Position numbers and translations under genes: made by a program | DNA from: Chloroflexota bacterium | GTDB taxonomy: Bacteria > Chloroflexota > Anaerolineae > JAAEKA01 | Length of the DNA: 35,453 nucleotides | Direction: 5' to 3' | Assembly: GCA_034717495.1 (NCBI GenBank) | Contig: JAYELL010000065.1 | Location: 1-35,453, forward strand | Part shown: in pieces, positions 2,886 to 28,411 of the stretch | How the letters are laid out: each line of letters starts with the position of its first letter | Numbering within the stretch: the first letter of the stretch is position 1 | The notes under the pieces: generated by a model | The model's input: only the letters and a program-made list of their open reading frames with translations | Database searches by the model: none | Told to the model about the DNA's origin: nothing

Positions 2886-5162
2886 CTACCCGCGCATCTG
2901 GCGGATCAGGTTCAGCGCCGAGCCGGCCTTGAACCACTCTATCTGGTTAGGCGACAGGGTATGGGAAAGGGTGCCCTCATCGATGCTGCCGTCGGGATGG
3001 CTGATCACCAGGCGCAGTTTACTGCCCGGCTCCAGGTCGGCCAGACCCAGAATACTGATGCGGTCCTCTTCGACGATCCTGTCGTAGTCGCCAGGATCGT
3101 CGAAAGTCAGCGGCAGCACGCCTTGCTTCTTGAGATTGGTCTCCGCAATGCGGGCAAAGGACCGGGCAATCACAGCAAGGCCACCCAAATGGCGGGGCTC
3201 CATGGCCGCGTGCTCGCGGCTGCTGCCCTCGCCATAGTTATCATCGCCAACAGCTACCCAGCCCAATCCGCGGGACTTGTAATCGCGGGCGATTTGGTTG
3301 TAATCAACATCCTGCTCACCGGAAAGAACGTTTTTTCCCTTGCCGGCCGGGTGATCATAAGCGCTGACCACACCGATAAACATGTTGTTGCTGATGTTGT
3401 CCAGATGGCCGCGATAGCGCAACCAGGGACCAGCCGGCGAAATATGGTCGGTCGTGGTCTTGCCCTGAGATTTCAGAAGCACAGGCAAATCCACGAAATC
3501 CTGCCCGCTCCAGGCAGGGAAGGGCTCCAGCAACTCCAGGCGCTCGCTGAGCGGATCGATGACCACCTCCAGACCTTCACGTTCTTCGGCAGCCAGCGGC
3601 GCCACGAAACCCTCTTCGCCCTCGACAAAACCGTTCTTCGGTAATTCATCGCCGCTGGGCGGATCGAGCCGCACTGCCTCGCCAGCCTCGTTGAGCAGCG
3701 AATCAGTCAGCGGGTTGAATGCCAGCGTGCCGGCCAGCGCCAATGCCGTCACGATTTCCGCCGAGGCTATGAAGCTATGGGTAGCAGGGTTCCCATCGTT
3801 TCGCCCGGAGAAGTTTCGGTTGAATGAGTTGATGATCGAATTTTCCTCACCGTGGTCCACATCCACGTCGGTTCGCCGCCACTGGCCGATGCAGGCACCG
3901 CAGGCGTTAGCAAGGATCGTCGCGCCAATCGCCTCCAGCGCGCCCAGTTGGCCATCCCGTTCGACAGTGGCCCGAATCTGCTCGGAACCCGGATTGATCA
4001 GAAACTGAACCCTGGCACCAAGCCCCTTGACAGCGGCCTGGCGAGCCACGTCGGCTGCCCGGCTCAGATCCTCGTACGATGAATTGGTGCAGCTTCCTAC
4101 CAGGGCCGCCGTCAATTCGACGGGATATCCCTTCGCCTTGACCTCCGCGGCCAGCGCCGAAATGGGCCGGTCCAGGTCAGGCGAATAGGGGCCCACCACG
4201 TGCGGCTCCAGCTCGCTCAGGTTGATCTCGATGACCCGATCGTAGTAGCTTTCAGGGCTCGCCAACACCTCAGCGTCGGGCCGCAGGCAATCGGCAACTT
4301 GCTCCGCAAGGGCGGCTACATCATCCCGACCGGTGGCCCGAAGATAGGCGGCCATGCGACCGTCGAAGGGGAAAATGGAGGTGGTGGCACCCAGCTCGGC
4401 GCCCATATTGGTGATGGTCGCCTTGCCGGTAGCGCTGATGGACTCGCTGCCGGGACCGAAGTACTCGACGATATGTCCGGTCCCCCCTTTGACACTCAGA
4501 ATCCCCGCGACCTTCAGAATCACATCCTTGGGTGCGGTCCAGCCGTTCAGCTCGCCTGTCAACCTCACGCCGATAATTCCCGGCCAACGCAATTCCCATG
4601 GCACACCCACCATGACATCCACCCCATCCGCACCGCCCACGCCAATAGCAATCATTCCCAACCCACCCGCGTTGGGCGTGTGGCTGTCGGCGCCAATCAT
4701 CATGCCGCCGGGGAAGGCGTAGTTCTCAAGAACGACCTGGTGAATGATCCCGGCCCCAGGTTGCCAGAATCCCATGCCATATTTCTTCGAAGCGCTCAGC
4801 AGAAAATCGTAGACCTCGGAGTTTTCCCGGTTGGCGATCTCCAGATCGGTTTCGGCGCCATACTGGGCCCGAATCAGATGGTCCGCGTGGACCGTCGTTG
4901 GTACCGCTGTATCGGGCCGCTGGGCAAGCATGAACTGCAGAATGGCCATCTGCGCGGTGGCATCCTGCATGGCCACACGATCAGGGTTGAAGTTCACGTA
5001 GCTTTCGCGACGCTCTGGCGCTTCCGTCGGCCACGAATCCACATGGGCCAACAGGATTTTTTCCGTCAGGGTTAACGGACGCCCCATTAACGTGCGTCCC
5101 TTCTCCTGTCGCTCTCGAAGGCCACTGTATACGCCCGCCATCATATCAAAATCCATCGTCAT
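2886..5162 (-). CDS. acn: Aconitate hydratase, mitochondrial-type
   Basis: A 758-residue aconitase interconverting citrate and isocitrate via cis-aconitate. Length and motifs fit the ~750-residue mitochondrial-type family rather than the ~890-residue AcnA or the AcnB architecture. The [4Fe-4S] ligands are visible in [12 protein letters not shown] and in [10 protein letters not shown]. The substrate-binding [15 protein letters not shown] segment and [12 protein letters not shown] are present, and the swivel domain carries [15 protein letters not shown]. The C-terminus is complete. The ATG at 5162 follows AGGAGACGTATT. The product feeds icd on the same strand, but the repeat locus and two small genes lie between them, so a single transcript is uncertain. 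Confidence 0.96.
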
Positions 5163-5473: not shown

Positions 5474-8400
5474 CTACGGACTTACTTCGAACACCACAAC
5501 CTGGCAGCCCTGGCTGTCTGCCACGACCACCAGATCGCTGCCCCCTTCAGCGACCGGCACTGCCGCGATTCCTACCGGTTTGATCAACCCATCGCCAGCG
5601 CCGAACTGCCCTGACGGCGTGCCATCCGGGTTGAAAAGCAGGATCCGCCGGCCTTCCGGGTCGGTGCAATAAAGGCCGCCGGCCGGCCGCAGAGCCAGGT
5701 GCGGTCCCTCAATCGTGCTGGACGGGACCGGTCCACCCCACTTCTGAACCATGCCTCCGGCGGTCACCTGGGTAATCAAACCATTCTCCGCTTCGACAAA
5801 ATAGAGATCACCCCCGGACGAAGCAACGGCGTCCGTAGGTTGCCGGCTGGCGATCTCACTTTCCGGTCCACCAACTTGATTCAGCCTCTCTCCGGAAGCA
5901 TCCAGGCCAACAATACGCAAGCCGCCCGTGTCAGCAACCTCCAGTTGGCCCGCCAGATCGATGCCAACTCCCCTGGGCCGGTAGAATGCCTGCTCGGCAC
6001 CAAACGTTTCAACAAATTCCCCTCCGGGATCAAAGCGCAGAAGCCGCTGCCCAACCGCATCGAGGACAAGGATGCTGCCCGCCGGCTCAACAACCAGATC
6101 GACCGGTTCCTGAAACTGATCGACCCCTTCGCCCTGCCCGCCCCAGACCTTCTCAATCACACCTTGCTCACCAAGCACGACTATGCGAAAATTCCCGGTG
6201 TCGGCAACATAAACGCTGCCGTTGCTCAGGTCGACCGCCACACCCCGTGGCGATGAAAACTGGTTTTCACCGCTGCCACAGGAGCCGATACGCCACCGAA
6301 CCTTTGCCTCAAGCTGCGGCAAATCATTGGCCACCGGTCCAGCCACGACTCCAGTATCAGGTCGCGACGGTGCAATCTCCGTCACAGCGCCGGCGTCCGG
6401 TTCCAGCCCACCACCAGATCGTTCCACCGCTGGCAAGGGCGGCATGACCAGACCCTCGGGAATAGCCTCCGCCTCCAGCGGTATCAGGTATTCGGGAGTT
6501 ACCATGGCCTGCCCCTGCCCCGGTGGCTGCCACCAGAACTGCATTTCCCGGCTCCCTCCAACATCGTTGTAGCGTACCTCCAGATCATGAAACCCTTTAT
6601 CCAGGTGGATGCTACCCTGTCGTCCCTCGGCCCCATGAATGCCGCCATTGTCCACCACCAGCTGTCCATCGATGAAGACGAAGGAGCCGTCGTCCGACCG
6701 GGTGCCGAAGACATAGGTGCCGGTCTCGGGAATGGCGATCTTGCCATGCCACGCGATGCTGAAGGGCTCAGGCAAGGCATTGTTGGCCAGCACCAGTCGA
6801 TCGTTGCGCACCAGAACAGGTTGGCCCTGCCAATCGGCGTTCGCATAGTAGTAGCCGATCAGGCCATTGCCCCCCAATTCAAAGGTAAATAGCTGCCGGT
6901 CCGACAGGACCATAGCTTCAAATCCCGGACCTGTCCATGTCAACGCCAGTCTTCCAGGCTGCTCCCCGGAAGCCACTTCCAGCCGAATGGGATGGAATCC
7001 GGCCGGCAAGGTCACCGAAAGACTGCCGCTTCCACCTTCGGGCATCTCAAGGCGGGAGGAATTTCCAATCTGAAGACTGGCGGAATCGCCCTCAGACAGC
7101 AGGTCAAAAGTGTATTCGCCGTACTCAGGCACCAGCAAGGTGCCGCTCAAAACAGTGAAATAGGGGGGCTCGACCAGGGCATCGCCCATGTCGACGTCCA
7201 GGGTCGGCATGGTCTGGCGTACAATCGGGGCCTGGCTCGGTGGATAACCTGGGTAATAGCTGGCCATTATCCCCCTGGCAGCCACCAGATCAGCCCTGGG
7301 TACTCTGAAGCTTAGAAAAAGGGAATAGCCGTTTGGGCCCGCATGATGCTCTGGCCGGCCACCGGGATAGATCTGTTTCAGCAACTCCAGAGTTGGTTCG
7401 TCGATTGGGTCGAGGATGTAGACCAGATCCCCGCCAGAATCCTTCAGGAAGGGCACGTCGACAGTCGCATCCAGTCCCCGGTAGGGATGATCCCGCCCGA
7501 TGAACCTGACGGCGGAGTGATGCTCGTACTGTGGCGTAATCAAGACTGTAGTATCGGGCGACAAGGTCGTCAGATACCGGCCGATTGCCGATTCGTTGGG
7601 ACTGTACGCGGCAAGCACGTCAGGATTCAATGCCTGCGCGCTGAAGAAACTGCCGATGTTGAGAATCGAGACCAGGACCACCACCATGGCTGTAGCTCCC
7701 ATAAGTACTCGTTCTCCCAGCCCTTTCCACGTTTGCTGCCAACTGATAAAAAACTGATCCGTGACCAGGGCAACCTGAAGGAAGACCAGAGGAATCAGTC
7801 CGATGGTGCGACGGGCCGTGGGCGCTTCGTGAGATACAGACAACACGCCCAGGCTGGCAATGGCAATGAACCAGAGCATGAAAAGCACGGACACTGGCCG
7901 GCCCCGCAATGCATACCAGAGACTGTAGCCAAGCCCCAGCACGAACAAGACAGCCACCAGAGCGCCCAACATGGCAGCGCCAGGCAGGTTATTGAGCGGC
8001 GCTGGATCACCCTGCCAGTTGAACATGGTTAGCGTCTTGCGCAGATTCTCGAAAACCGGCTGAAAACTGCCCCGTTGTCCCACCTCAGACATGATGCTGA
8101 CGTGCTGAATGCGCCCGACGAAGACCTGCCAATTCTGCAGGATGTAAACCATCAACGGCAGCCCGGCAAGAACCGCGCCGCCACCCATGATTGCTATCCC
8201 CTGGACATCGGCAGCGACCCGTTGGCGCTCGCGAATCCAGCTTCGCACCAGCCAATACAGGAAGAACAGCGCCAAAAGGATGGGAACAACCCGGAAGGCC
8301 GTATAGGTGTTCATGCCGGCGGCCAGGCTGACGCCTGCCAGCGCCCAATCGCGACGGCGGCCACTGCGCAACCCGCGTAACATGAAAAAGACGATCAGTA

Positions 8401-25835: not shown

Positions 25836-25939
25836 TCCATCCCCTCTCTGGTGATTACTTTCGATGATGTTTCGGCCGCTGCGGATCAGGCGCTCTGTTG
25901 AGCATCGCCTGCATCCCGCTTGTTCGATTCTCTCTTGAG

Positions 25940-26166
25940 TCAGTCAGTTGTTATCCGGCTTCCCCACCAGTCCTCGTTCGGCCGCCAGTCCGGGTCCAAG
26001 TACTCAGCGTGCTCTGCCTCAAGCTCCGGCATCAACTCATGCTCCAACTTGCGCAGCAGAGCGTTCTCCTTCTCAGAATCGTATTCTGGATCCGGAGTGG
26101 GGAACTTCGCAGGTCACGCCAACCCAGGTCGTCGGCCAATATGAATAGAATGTTTGGGCATTTCAT
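25940..26166 (-). pseudogene. Sulfatase remnant keeping only its two ends
   Basis: ATG 26166, after GAGGAGGAAG, starts KCPNILFILADDLGWRDL, the unmistakable N-terminus of a type I sulfatase with the metal-binding Asp-Asp. After about 19 residues the homology ends and this frame stops at 26032. In another frame, from about 26096 to the TGA at 25940, a sulfatase-like C-terminus can be read (PDPEYDSEKENALLRKLEHE, then DWRPNEDWW). About 400 residues, including the Cys/Ser-x-Pro-x-Arg modification site, are gone, and the junction is out of frame. The remaining bases to 25836 show nothing recognisable. Confidence 0.75.
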
Positions 26167-26178
26167 CTTCCTCCTCGA

Positions 26179-26302
26179 ATCGAACGGCTGCGAGCTGAGC
26201 GGCCGGGGATCGCTTCTTCACGAGCCCAGAGCGAAGCGAACGCTTTGATTTTCTCTTGCATTTGCCGCCGAATCCCCGGTCCGTTCCAGCGAGTTGTTAT
26301 GC
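26179..26302 (-). repeat. attC: attC-like site 3
   Basis: The minus-strand 5' end GCATAACAACTCGCTGGAAC matches the attC simple-site consensus. The arms GGAACGGACCGGGGATTCG and, near the other end, CGATCCCCGGCCGCTCAGCT pair with single-base bulges. The 3' core is degenerate (GTTCGAT instead of GTTRRRY). It directly follows the methyltransferase stop and precedes the sulfatase remnant by 12 bases. Confidence 0.6.
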
Positions 26303-26306
26303 CGCT

Positions 26307-27170
26307 CTACTCGGATTTGTTTCCGATAGCGACGATATGCCCAGTTACACCGATAATTGACGGTTCGTCCTCCAGCCATCGAATAGCTTCAAGCATTCGG
26401 CTCCGACGCTCAGGAACACTCCATTGCTCATCTAGATCCTGCAGAAAAACGGCAGCGCCCTCAATTGCCAGCACGCTCTCAACCACGAACCCTGCTGCTT
26501 GCACTTCCTCTTCCAACTCGTTCGGATGATGGAAGAATGAAGTTGTGAAGTAGCTTGCCTTGCTTGTTGGATTTCGATGCTGACCGTCAGCAAGATCACG
26601 CTTAGCTATTTGGATAAAATCTGCATCCTCGAAATAGCCCTCAATTAATCCTTGGAATGTAGATGCAAACCTTGAGATTCCGACAGCAATCAACAGTCCG
26701 CCTTGCTTTAGAACACGAAATGCTTCCTGCAAAGCCATGACTCGATCCGAACGCTCAGTGAGGTGGTAAAGAGGGCCGAGCAGCAGTACGACATCGGCAT
26801 AACCGTCCGGATACTCGAGCTTCCGTGCATCTCCGAGAGTAATTGAGCTAACCGGGAACTCGGATTGTCGCTGGGAAGCCTGACTTGCTTGTTGCAGGTG
26901 AAGAGGAATGGGATCAGTCAGGTGAACCTCAAATCCCTCTTGAGCGAGCCAACACGCATATGCTCCGGGTCCCCCACCGACATCTAATACAACTGCAGGC
27001 GGATTAGGCAAATAGCGGCTAATGATTTCCTTCGTGCGGGCGAACTCTAACTCACCCTCAGCGCCCAAAAGGCGTTCTGCCTCAAGACCCATCTCGTAGT
27101 ACGAGGAGGTTTCTTCTGGGAGTGAAGGTTGTCGATTCTCTTTGCTTTTCATTTTCAACCAATCATCCAA
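26307..27170 (-). CDS. Class I SAM-dependent methyltransferase
   Basis: A 287-residue methyltransferase. Motif I is VVLDVGGGPGAYACWLAQEG; the acidic residue binding the SAM ribose is in VHLTDPIP; post-motif segments are SITLGDARKLEYPDGYADVV and LLLGPLYHLTERSDR. The region after FRVLKQGGLLIAVGISRFAS is a variable substrate domain. The substrate is unknown. ATG 27170 lies only four bases from the core of an attC-like site; ATG 27152 is an alternative. With an attC-like site directly on each side, the gene has the form of an integron gene cassette. Confidence 0.87.
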   Translation of the reverse strand: MDDWLKMKSKENRQPSLPEETSSYYEMGLEAERLLGAEGELEFARTKEIISRYLPNPPAVVLDVGGGPGAYACWLAQEGFEVHLTDPIPLHLQQASQASQRQSEFPVSSITLGDARKLEYPDGYADVVLLLGPLYHLTERSDRVMALQEAFRVLKQGGLLIAVGISRFASTFQGLIEGYFEDADFIQIAKRDLADGQHRNPTSKASYFTTSFFHHPNELEEEVQAAGFVVESVLAIEGAAVFLQDLDEQWSVPERRSRMLEAIRWLEDEPSIIGVTGHIVAIGNKSE

Positions 27171-27174
27171 AGCG

Positions 27175-27261
27175 GCATAACGGTGGAATTAAGCGGCGCC
27201 TGCAATCCTGTTGCGAATTACCACTGACCAGCCTGGCGCCCGCTTTAGTGATTTGTTAGGC
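27175..27261 (-). repeat. attC: attC-like site 2
   Basis: On the minus strand this 87-base element begins GCCTAACAAATCACTAAAGC (R'' core GCCTAAC) and ends GGCGCCGCTTAATTCCACC then GTTATGC. The arms CTAAAGCGGGCGCC and GGCGCCGCTTAATTC pair with one extrahelical base, as in integron attC sites. The stop codon of the SRPBCC gene lies inside GCCTAAC, a usual feature of cassettes. Confidence 0.75.
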
Positions 27262-27693
27262 ATTTGTATCCTGTATTTCCATAAGCTCTTTAAGCTTTTG
27301 TAGGTCACCCCGCACGCCCTTGCGCATTCTCTTTCCCATAAAGAACATCATGAAGCGCATGAATAAAGGTCCTGATATTCTCATCTGAACATTGACGCGG
27401 CTGCCGTTGGTTTCTGGTTCCACTTGAAAGATAGCGATCGAACCTTTCAGAGCGCCAGCTGTATGGATAAATTCAAAACTGCGGCCATCTTCAAATCTGG
27501 TAATTCCCCAATTCATAGCACCCATATCCTTATGGGTATGCTCGCCTGTTGAGCCTAGCCCATACGGCGGCTGTGAGGTCCATTCGGCTTTGGTGATGCC
27601 ATTCCGCCATTGAACATCATTGGTAACATCCATCCAATAGCTCCAAATCGATTCAGGGTTTCGTGAAATCGTTATTGTCTCGTTGATTAACAT
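27256..27693 (-). CDS. SRPBCC-family (polyketide cyclase/START-like) protein
   Basis: A 145-residue protein of the SRPBCC ligand-binding superfamily. The opening INETITISRNPESIWSYWMD and the following NDVQWRNGITKAEW are typical, with a hydrophobic-cavity fold ending in a long helix (RMRKGVRGDLQKLKELMEI). Such proteins bind or transform hydrophobic small molecules; the ligand is unknown. The TAA stop overlaps the first core of an attC-like site and another lies 66 bases upstream, so it reads as a cassette gene. The Shine-Dalgarno is weak. Confidence 0.82.
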   Translation of the reverse strand: MLINETITISRNPESIWSYWMDVTNDVQWRNGITKAEWTSQPPYGLGSTGEHTHKDMGAMNWGITRFEDGRSFEFIHTAGALKGSIAIFQVEPETNGSRVNVQMRISGPLFMRFMMFFMGKRMRKGVRGDLQKLKELMEIQDTNA

Positions 27694-27758
27694 GATTCGT
27701 GCCCTTCAAATGTATATATTGAACAGTTGTATTGCATGGTACATTTCAATTAAGAGAT

Positions 27759-27899
27759 GCCTAACGGGATAAGAGTTTCATGTGGCGCAGGGCACACAAA
27801 GCGACGACCGACATCGTTGGGTCTGCGTTAGTTGCGGCTGTAGAGCCATCGGGCCGGGAGCCGCCACATAAACTTTGGTTGAACTAAGCCGGGTTATGC
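27759..27899. repeat. attC: attC-like site 1
   Basis: The plus strand begins GCCTAAC (27759-27765) and ends GTTATGC (27893-27899). The internal arms GTTTCATGTGGCG and CGCCACATAAAC are complementary except for one extra C, the extrahelical-base pattern of attC. At 141 bases it is within the attC range. Its orientation cannot be fixed. It lies 65 bases before the SRPBCC start. Bases 27900-28005 show nothing else. Confidence 0.55.
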
Positions 27900-28005
27900 G
27901 GCTGAGAACCGCTATTTGGACCTACGGCATACGAACCCGTTGGCAGGGATCCGGTGACCCCTGGTGGCCACATTGAAGTTATTGTAGCATCTGAGATGGC
28001 CAATG

Positions 28006-28257
28006 TCAACGCAAAGTTGGCGATCCGATTGAAGTCATGAACCATGAGAGCCCTCTTTGCCAGAGGGTGTCAAGGTTACCTGTTAGAGGAGGTGATCGGC
28101 AGATAGGATGAACCACAGGGGCCTCCATGGCCAGGTCTTCGGCCTTACGAGTAAAGTGTGTGTACCGGGCAGTGGTCTTGATAGAGCTATGGCCCAACCA
28201 AATCTGGATCAGGCGCAGGTTGACTCCGGCTTCCAGCATATGAGTGGCCCAGGAACC
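28006..28257 (-). pseudogene. C-terminal remnant of a tyrosine recombinase
   Basis: The frame reads [20 protein letters not shown] then [15 protein letters not shown], the last catalytic block of phage-integrase-family recombinases with the H-x-x-x-x-x-x-x-Y tail. A TAG stop at 28258-28260 stands immediately before this block, and the catalytic Arg and the rest of the protein are missing. The last 35 residues do not resemble a recombinase end. The block is XerD-like and lacks features specific to integron IntI. It flanks the attC-like cluster and is probably the trace of an earlier mobile element. Confidence 0.7.
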
Positions 28258-28411
28258 CTAAAGGAGGTTTCGCACTGACGCAACGTGTGGACGGTGGCGT
28301 GCTGACGCGCTGCCTTGACGTGCTGATGTGCGCGGGCATGATGGTTTTATGGGTCCGGCACTCCCTTCTCTTCCATGACAGGCACCATCCCCAGGGGATG
28401 GCACCTCACAC

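Follow-up and report, generated by a model that had tools for sequence, protein, structure and literature searches.

The locus described here raises two questions: whether a short run of genes set between imperfect palindromes in a Chloroflexota bacterium consists of integron cassettes and, if so, how such cassettes come to stand in an array with no integrase beside it. By the window we mean the whole stretch of DNA that was analysed, 35,453 nucleotides long. A cluster of attC sites lacking an integron integrase (IntI) is known as a CALIN, a category of IntegronFinder, and the start of a gene cassette complements the R'' box of its own attC. The window holds a real, decayed CALIN, at whose head stands an IS91-family element end, here called site E (Table 1). 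The CALIN itself is ordinary; the noteworthy part is the cassette-like transposon that heads such arrays.

Table 1. Features of the cassette array and of the element remnant at its head, in window coordinates.
Feature	Position	Strand	Support
Tyrosine recombinase relic of the element, C-terminal part, frameshifted	28120-28353	-	tblastn
Outward promoter-like site (-35 TTGACA 28004-28009, 17-nt spacer, -10 TACAAT 27981-27986)	27981-28009	-	
Site E, 3' end of a decayed IS91-family element, attC-like hairpin	27759-27892	-	Model R1, 70.9 bits (copy in training set)
Cassette 1 gene, SRPBCC / Polyketide_cyc2 protein, 145 aa	27256-27693	-	Pfam PF10604, E-value 6.9e-14
attC1, end of cassette 1 (R'' GCCTAAC, R' GTTATGC)	27175-27261	-	9-nt complement with start at 27765
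Cassette 2 gene, SAM-dependent methyltransferase, 287 aa	26307-27170	-	Pfam PF08241, E-value 1.8e-17
attC2, end of cassette 2 (R'' GCATAAC, R' GTTCGAT)	26179-26302	-	11-nt complement with start at 27181
Cassette 3, decayed, without intact gene	25922-26185	-	9-nt complement 26185 to 25928; frames broken
Damaged attC3 (R'' ATCGAAC 25922-25928 and hairpin arms, R' lost)	25883-25928	-	

The cassette rule, a more telling test than folding, holds for the window cassettes. The starts of cassettes 1, 2 and 3 are exact complements of their own 3' R'' boxes over 9, 11 and 9 nt, and the three pairs are consecutive, head to tail on the minus strand. By this start/R'' rule (9 and 11 nt), the SRPBCC unit, bracketed by the pair from 27765 to 27261, and the methyltransferase unit, bracketed by the pair 27181-26302, are integron gene cassettes. 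The latter pair is the longest among the 1,002 GTT starts of the window (440 on the plus and 562 on the minus strand). When all complements of at least 9 nt within 1.5 kb were counted, seven pairs were found on each strand, and three of the seven on the minus strand are the consecutive window cassettes, the longest included. The original prediction had described three imperfect palindromes with all genes on one strand and a stop codon inside the core of the first site, and this was borne out, the SRPBCC stop lying in R'' at 27255-27261. Of its three attC-like sites, attC1 and attC2 stand, whereas the third (27759-27899) is the end of an IS91-family element and no ordinary attC; the damaged fourth site and the decayed third cassette had escaped it.

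Structural comparisons gave a mixed picture. Among 2,000 random window stretches of equal length, 39 had arms that paired as well as or better than those of attC1, 7 those of attC2, 66 those of damaged attC3 and 72 those of site E. Canonical attC sites carry extrahelical bases in the L'' arm (the polarity rule), and by eye the L'' arms of attC1 and damaged attC3 have extra bases of this kind. Folding of the bottom strand, a check proposed with the original prediction, lent no significant support for the whole sites (z -1.25, +0.84 and -1.10), and Rfam at gathering thresholds returned 0 matches in the window. A simple palindrome scanner for attC was discarded, as it reported many false sites. 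Our home-made attC covariance model was trained on 10 of the 17 sites prepared for it; the remainder mostly differed in their spacer. It gave attC1 (27178-27258) 9.3 bits (E-value 2.6), under several chance matches, and damaged attC3 (25883-25916) 9.4 bits (E-value 2.4), while attC2 and site E were absent from its matches in the window. Because the same model picks up attC sites at other loci, including some on which it was not trained, the window sites are either atypical for it or degraded. By the start/R'' rule the window thus contains the two or more clustered attC sites of a CALIN, whereas by this model it does not. Scores below threshold at all three sites, together with identical gene content in all relatives, had been named as grounds for abandoning the original prediction; the scores were indeed low with the home-made model, whereas the gene content of relatives was not identical.

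Chance palindromes in intergenic DNA, with no integron remnant at all, would account for the non-significant folding and for E-values above 2 with the home-made model. Such an origin would leave unexplained three consecutive start/R'' complements, a stop codon placed in R'', arms of attC2 that can be aligned with an attC on contig C2, which bears IntI, and the recurrence of E in other places, and we regard its probability as close to negligible.

Several observations concern the cassettes individually. In the remnant of cassette 3 (25922-26185), one frame reads PNILFILADDLGWRDL, by eye like the start of a sulfatase, and another ends in an acidic C-terminus, as if the gene had been internally deleted (likewise by eye); the remnant had no Pfam match. 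The SRPBCC protein (27256-27693) weakly matches the Rv0910 toxin family (32.6 bits against a cut-off of 100). Searched against plasmids, attC1 gave only short matches, none spanning more than 32% of the query.

The cluster had been predicted to lack IntI, with a search of the rest of the genome suggested as a check. That search recovered a full IntI on contig C2 (55501-56442; 461 bits against a cut-off of 265), which has attC sites of its own. On the window contig, C65, no IntI is among the matches listed, so that no integron integrase lies near the cluster among them, and only a relic of another tyrosine recombinase stands beside it. Given the intact IntI on another contig, the cluster is a CALIN in an IntI-bearing genome: the predicted CALIN agrees with true cassettes that have no adjoining IntI and whose content is not common to the family, but the genome does have the enzyme. 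Two C-terminal pieces of IntI in the same genome (C28, 46391-46687; C21, 3-296), which break off at contig ends and at an identical position of the model, are probably further IntI copies collapsed in the assembly. IntI exceeds the cut-off in at least 14 of the 41 genomes searched, this one counted.

Cassette content is sparsely distributed among relatives. Including the genome itself, homologues of the SRPBCC protein (E-value of 1e-10 or lower) occur in 3 of 298 genomes, the others being 26-27% identical, and those of the methyltransferase (1e-40 or lower) in 5 of 298, the others 42-53% identical. Neither gene was found in the 5 other genomes of the family, whereas the flanking LUD gene has a relative (61-64% identity) in 4 of these 5. 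A methyltransferase 77% identical to that of cassette 2 is encoded in a Chloroflexota MAG, where a weak E-like site precedes it (22.7 bits, E-value 0.044).

Site E is a conserved end of IS91-family elements. Its boxes in the window are R'' GTTCAAC (27878-27884) and R' GTTAGGC (27759-27765); GCATAAC at 27893-27899, taken earlier for the R'' of the third site, was dropped because other genomes conserve the GTTCAAC box. The segment 27759-28303 is repeated elsewhere in the genome, twice on C51 (93% and 89% identity) and once on C14 (83%), with partial copies on C106, C58 and C6, and a DNA search found pieces in 13 of 396 genomes of the class, this one counted. A covariance model of E (R1) gave at least 26 matches in at least 18 of 298 genomes, a lower bound, as the filters were strict and known copies in the present genome were missed; in 47 sources chosen mostly for having E, it gave 42 matches. 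The E pattern had 0 matches in viral contigs. The idea that E is an attI adjoining IntI was rejected, R1 having no match in the IntI loci L009 and L014-L028.

Aligned on their loop-free arms, the copies of E share a fixed left part, CGGCTTAGTTCAAC, and the arms GATTATGTGGCGG and CCACATGAATC, between which lies a loop of roughly 3 to 90 nt; they have a fixed end before GTT and differ in sequence after it. Two arm pairs of the hairpin vary on both sides, as compensatory changes do. In having R'' and R' boxes around a hairpin, E resembles an attC (79.8% of box cells and 97.9% of stem cells are paired), but its extra base is either missing or placed in the L' arm, and not in L'', where an attC has its extrahelical bases; this argues against ordinary integrase use of E.

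The elements that end in E can be read in three genomes, G031, G096 and G025, in which a tyrosine recombinase gene (282-298 aa) is followed by an IS91 transposase gene, broken in G025, and then by E. The transposases belong to the IS91 family (NF033538 at 288-407 bits against a cut-off of 125) and have the zinc-binding and Y2_Tnp domains (PF04986 and PF14319). The recombinases score best against the integron integrase model TIGR02249 (197-215 bits), above XerC and XerD; being under 265 bits and lacking the IntI insert in the alignment, they do not qualify as IntI. The left end of the complete elements reads GTTGAACTAAGCGC, followed by a small hairpin, and in all three it complements GGCTTAGTTCAAC of E at 11 of 12 positions. 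The recombinase relic of the window matches the three intact recombinases at 47-58% identity (tblastn, E-values 4e-15 to 6e-13). Of the two genes, the window element retains only part of the recombinase; on C51, a recombinase relic in two frames and transposase residues 3-51 precede E. A PF04986 search of the genome returned no match, and neither did its controls. IS91 transposases are present in 11 of 249 genomes; at the transposase loci of G067, G183, G216 and G240 neither end motif was seen, and in G173 the left end is as in the complete elements while the arms of the right end are different. Locus L097 (1867-3121) has two E sites ahead of a recombinase/IS91 pair. The two sites enclose a cassette-like unit (11-nt pair), so that the recombinase/IS91 pair may itself sit there as a cassette.

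Promoter-like sites are more frequent upstream of E than in controls. The promoter-like site of the window has one mismatch to TTGACA/TATAAT and points into the cassettes. For the survey, 41 of the 42 E sites were used and 3 with less than 150 nt upstream were left out, giving 38 copies. Within 200 nt upstream, 13 of these have a site with at most two mismatches, against 3.2% of 1,140 controls, and 29 have one with at most three, against 12.5% of controls. Of the 38 copies, 36 have the start of an open frame of at least 60 codons in the same orientation and no more than 400 nt away (a raw count, without controls). An upstream promoter and a conserved hairpin with two compensatory pair changes would suit a structured leader RNA with a regulatory effect on the gene behind E. 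This is nevertheless highly unlikely, given that the genes behind E are unrelated, that E follows the transposase gene in complete elements, that the loop length varies so widely and that Rfam offers no match.

What follows E behaves as a cassette in a third of the copies. From the 42 matches, 4 without the expected GTT and 2 with less than 800 nt downstream were removed, leaving 36 copies. In 12 of them the next gene has a start/R'' pair of 9-13 nt, compared with 5 of 238 control GTTRRRY sites elsewhere in the same loci; permuted starts gave a mean of 0.76 and a maximum of 5 in 300 runs. The other 24 fail the 9-nt test. GTT after E is nearly constant and the base after it is rarely C; the strict form GTTRRRY follows 16 of 38 copies. 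Some of the R'' boxes behind E open a textbook attC (L106, L132 and L108), and the home-made model scores attC sites behind E, all outside its training set, on contig C14 of the present genome (39.9 bits) and in L132, L106 and L140, the last with a start/R'' pair of only 7 nt.

Other mobile elements were noticed as well. Group IIC-attC introns sit just behind the R'' of an attC. L103 has Rfam matches to Group II introns at 6303-6460 (53.0 bits) and 4715-4789 (42.2 bits). One of them comes immediately after the R'' of the attC downstream of E, the other lies upstream of E, and L101 has a sequence very similar to the L103 intron match behind its own R''. An IS110-like element is present in three near-identical copies, at L090 6046-7351 and at two places in L091; two of the copies lie directly behind an R'' box (GTCTAAC and GCCGAAC), which suggests insertion into attC sites.

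How, then, did E come to stand at the head of cassettes? We think it somewhat probable that these integrase-less arrays have at their head a transposon of the IS91 family with the build of an integron cassette. In G019 the left end of an element lies directly at the attI of IntI, CTTAATAG/TTGAACTAAGC (the slash marks the junction), on a contig that ends before E. The attI ends in G038 (CTATAG/TT) and G180 (CCATAG/TT) are backed by 12- and 10-nt pairs, and the first cassette of G180 is itself an IS91 transposase gene, of a different type, with a 10-nt pair. The G019 junction and the first-cassette transposase of G180 favour the element being a cassette. In G031, two 100% identical copies share sequence beyond the left end and have different cassettes after E, which favours IS91-type movement, and the element may be both a cassette and an IS91-type mover. 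Counted against a cassette-like transposon are the polarity of E's extra base, the 24 of 36 copies that fail the 9-nt test, the limited share of copies with strict GTTRRRY, the small number of E-bearing genomes with an IntI over the cut-off (only 9 of 27, the closed genome of G031 having none), the G019 contig that stops short of E, the non-significant folding and the failure of the home-made model to score the window sites.

A serious alternative, though one that we consider unlikely, is that E amounts to no more than the replication-origin end of a transposon of the IS91 family, which prefers the GTT at the starts of cassettes as its target and inserted next to cassettes already in place. 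E does lie at the 3' end of the transposase gene, the GTT behind it scarcely varies, and one-ended transposition would give the pattern of G031, with a common left flank and different cassettes at the right end. IS91 elements take GTTC or CTTG as targets, which fits a preference of this kind, but C is rare after the GTT here. Moreover, by eye neither an attC half nor an attI half is visible to the left of the complete elements of G096, G025 and G031, and a mere target preference leaves the complementary start and end of the element unexplained.

It is also conceivable, if distinctly unlikely, that the element's own IntI-like recombinase, and not IntI, captures cassettes at E, making the element a self-transposing integron-like platform. 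The wider proposal, of a second kind of integron in which an IS91-family transposon gathers standard cassettes at its origin end by its own recombinase and expresses them from a built-in promoter, even without IntI, we hold to be doubtful to the same degree. The affinity of the recombinases for the integrase model and the presence of cassettes behind E in G031 agree with this, but their scores and the missing insert do not, and G031 may have lost its IntI. Furthermore, the recombinase/IS91 pair also occurs in Alphaproteobacteria, where the two cases examined showed no start/end complement of this kind.

We return to the transposon built as a cassette, for which the following course can be proposed. 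(i) The first member of an array would be an IS91-family rolling-circle transposon with the layout of a gene cassette, starting G/TTGAACTAAGC, which carries an IntI-like tyrosine recombinase, an IS91 transposase and an outward promoter, with E at its end, where the box GCTTAGTTCAAC is the reverse complement of the transposon start. (ii) IntI acting in trans would join ordinary cassettes to E at G/TT, so placed that they could be transcribed from E's promoter. (iii) The head would then leave the integron by IS91-type transposition, or through IntI at secondary G/TT sites, and its relocation would yield promoter-headed CALINs. In the window, the transposon would have decayed to the recombinase relic, the promoter and E, followed by the SRPBCC, methyltransferase and decayed third cassettes.

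Known systems share parts of this arrangement. CALINs, as in PMC7923331, likewise have attC cassettes without an adjoining IntI; here, in contrast, an IS91-family element end stands at the head together with its outward promoter, and IntI is elsewhere in the genome. ISCR28 of the sul4 modules (PMC12772301, 2025) is an IS91-like element adjoining integron cassettes, with attC sites reported at its end or immediately beyond it; the present elements differ from what is described there in having a tyrosine recombinase and a complementary start and end, and in heading arrays without IntI. As with the outward POUT promoters of ISCR1 (PMC6218425), promoters of an IS91-like element would drive neighbouring genes, but ISCR1 is associated with the class 1 integron 3' conserved segment, whereas here the promoter lies directly before the cassettes. 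Elements on Herpetosiphon, Paracoccus and Dinoroseobacter plasmids also have a recombinase/integrase gene followed by a transposase gene, the transposases being 40-54% identical to that of G096, with Herpetosiphon the nearest named relative among plasmids; the three examined have no such start/end complement. Our literature search, outside which most subscription journals lay, found no description of an IS91 element with a tyrosine recombinase that is built as a cassette.

The route by which cassettes depart from integrons and gather in clusters without an integrase is an unsettled question in the field. PMC12772301 leaves open whether ISCR28 is mobile or is shuffled as a cassette, and whether an IS91-like element next to cassettes acts as vehicle or as passenger. 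The loci described here form a natural series, from an element at attI, through complete elements with a cassette elsewhere and identical copies with different cassettes, to bare promoter-headed remnants such as that of the window. The E-headed arrangement recurs in other genomes of the class and may help to explain how cassettes become scattered through genomes.
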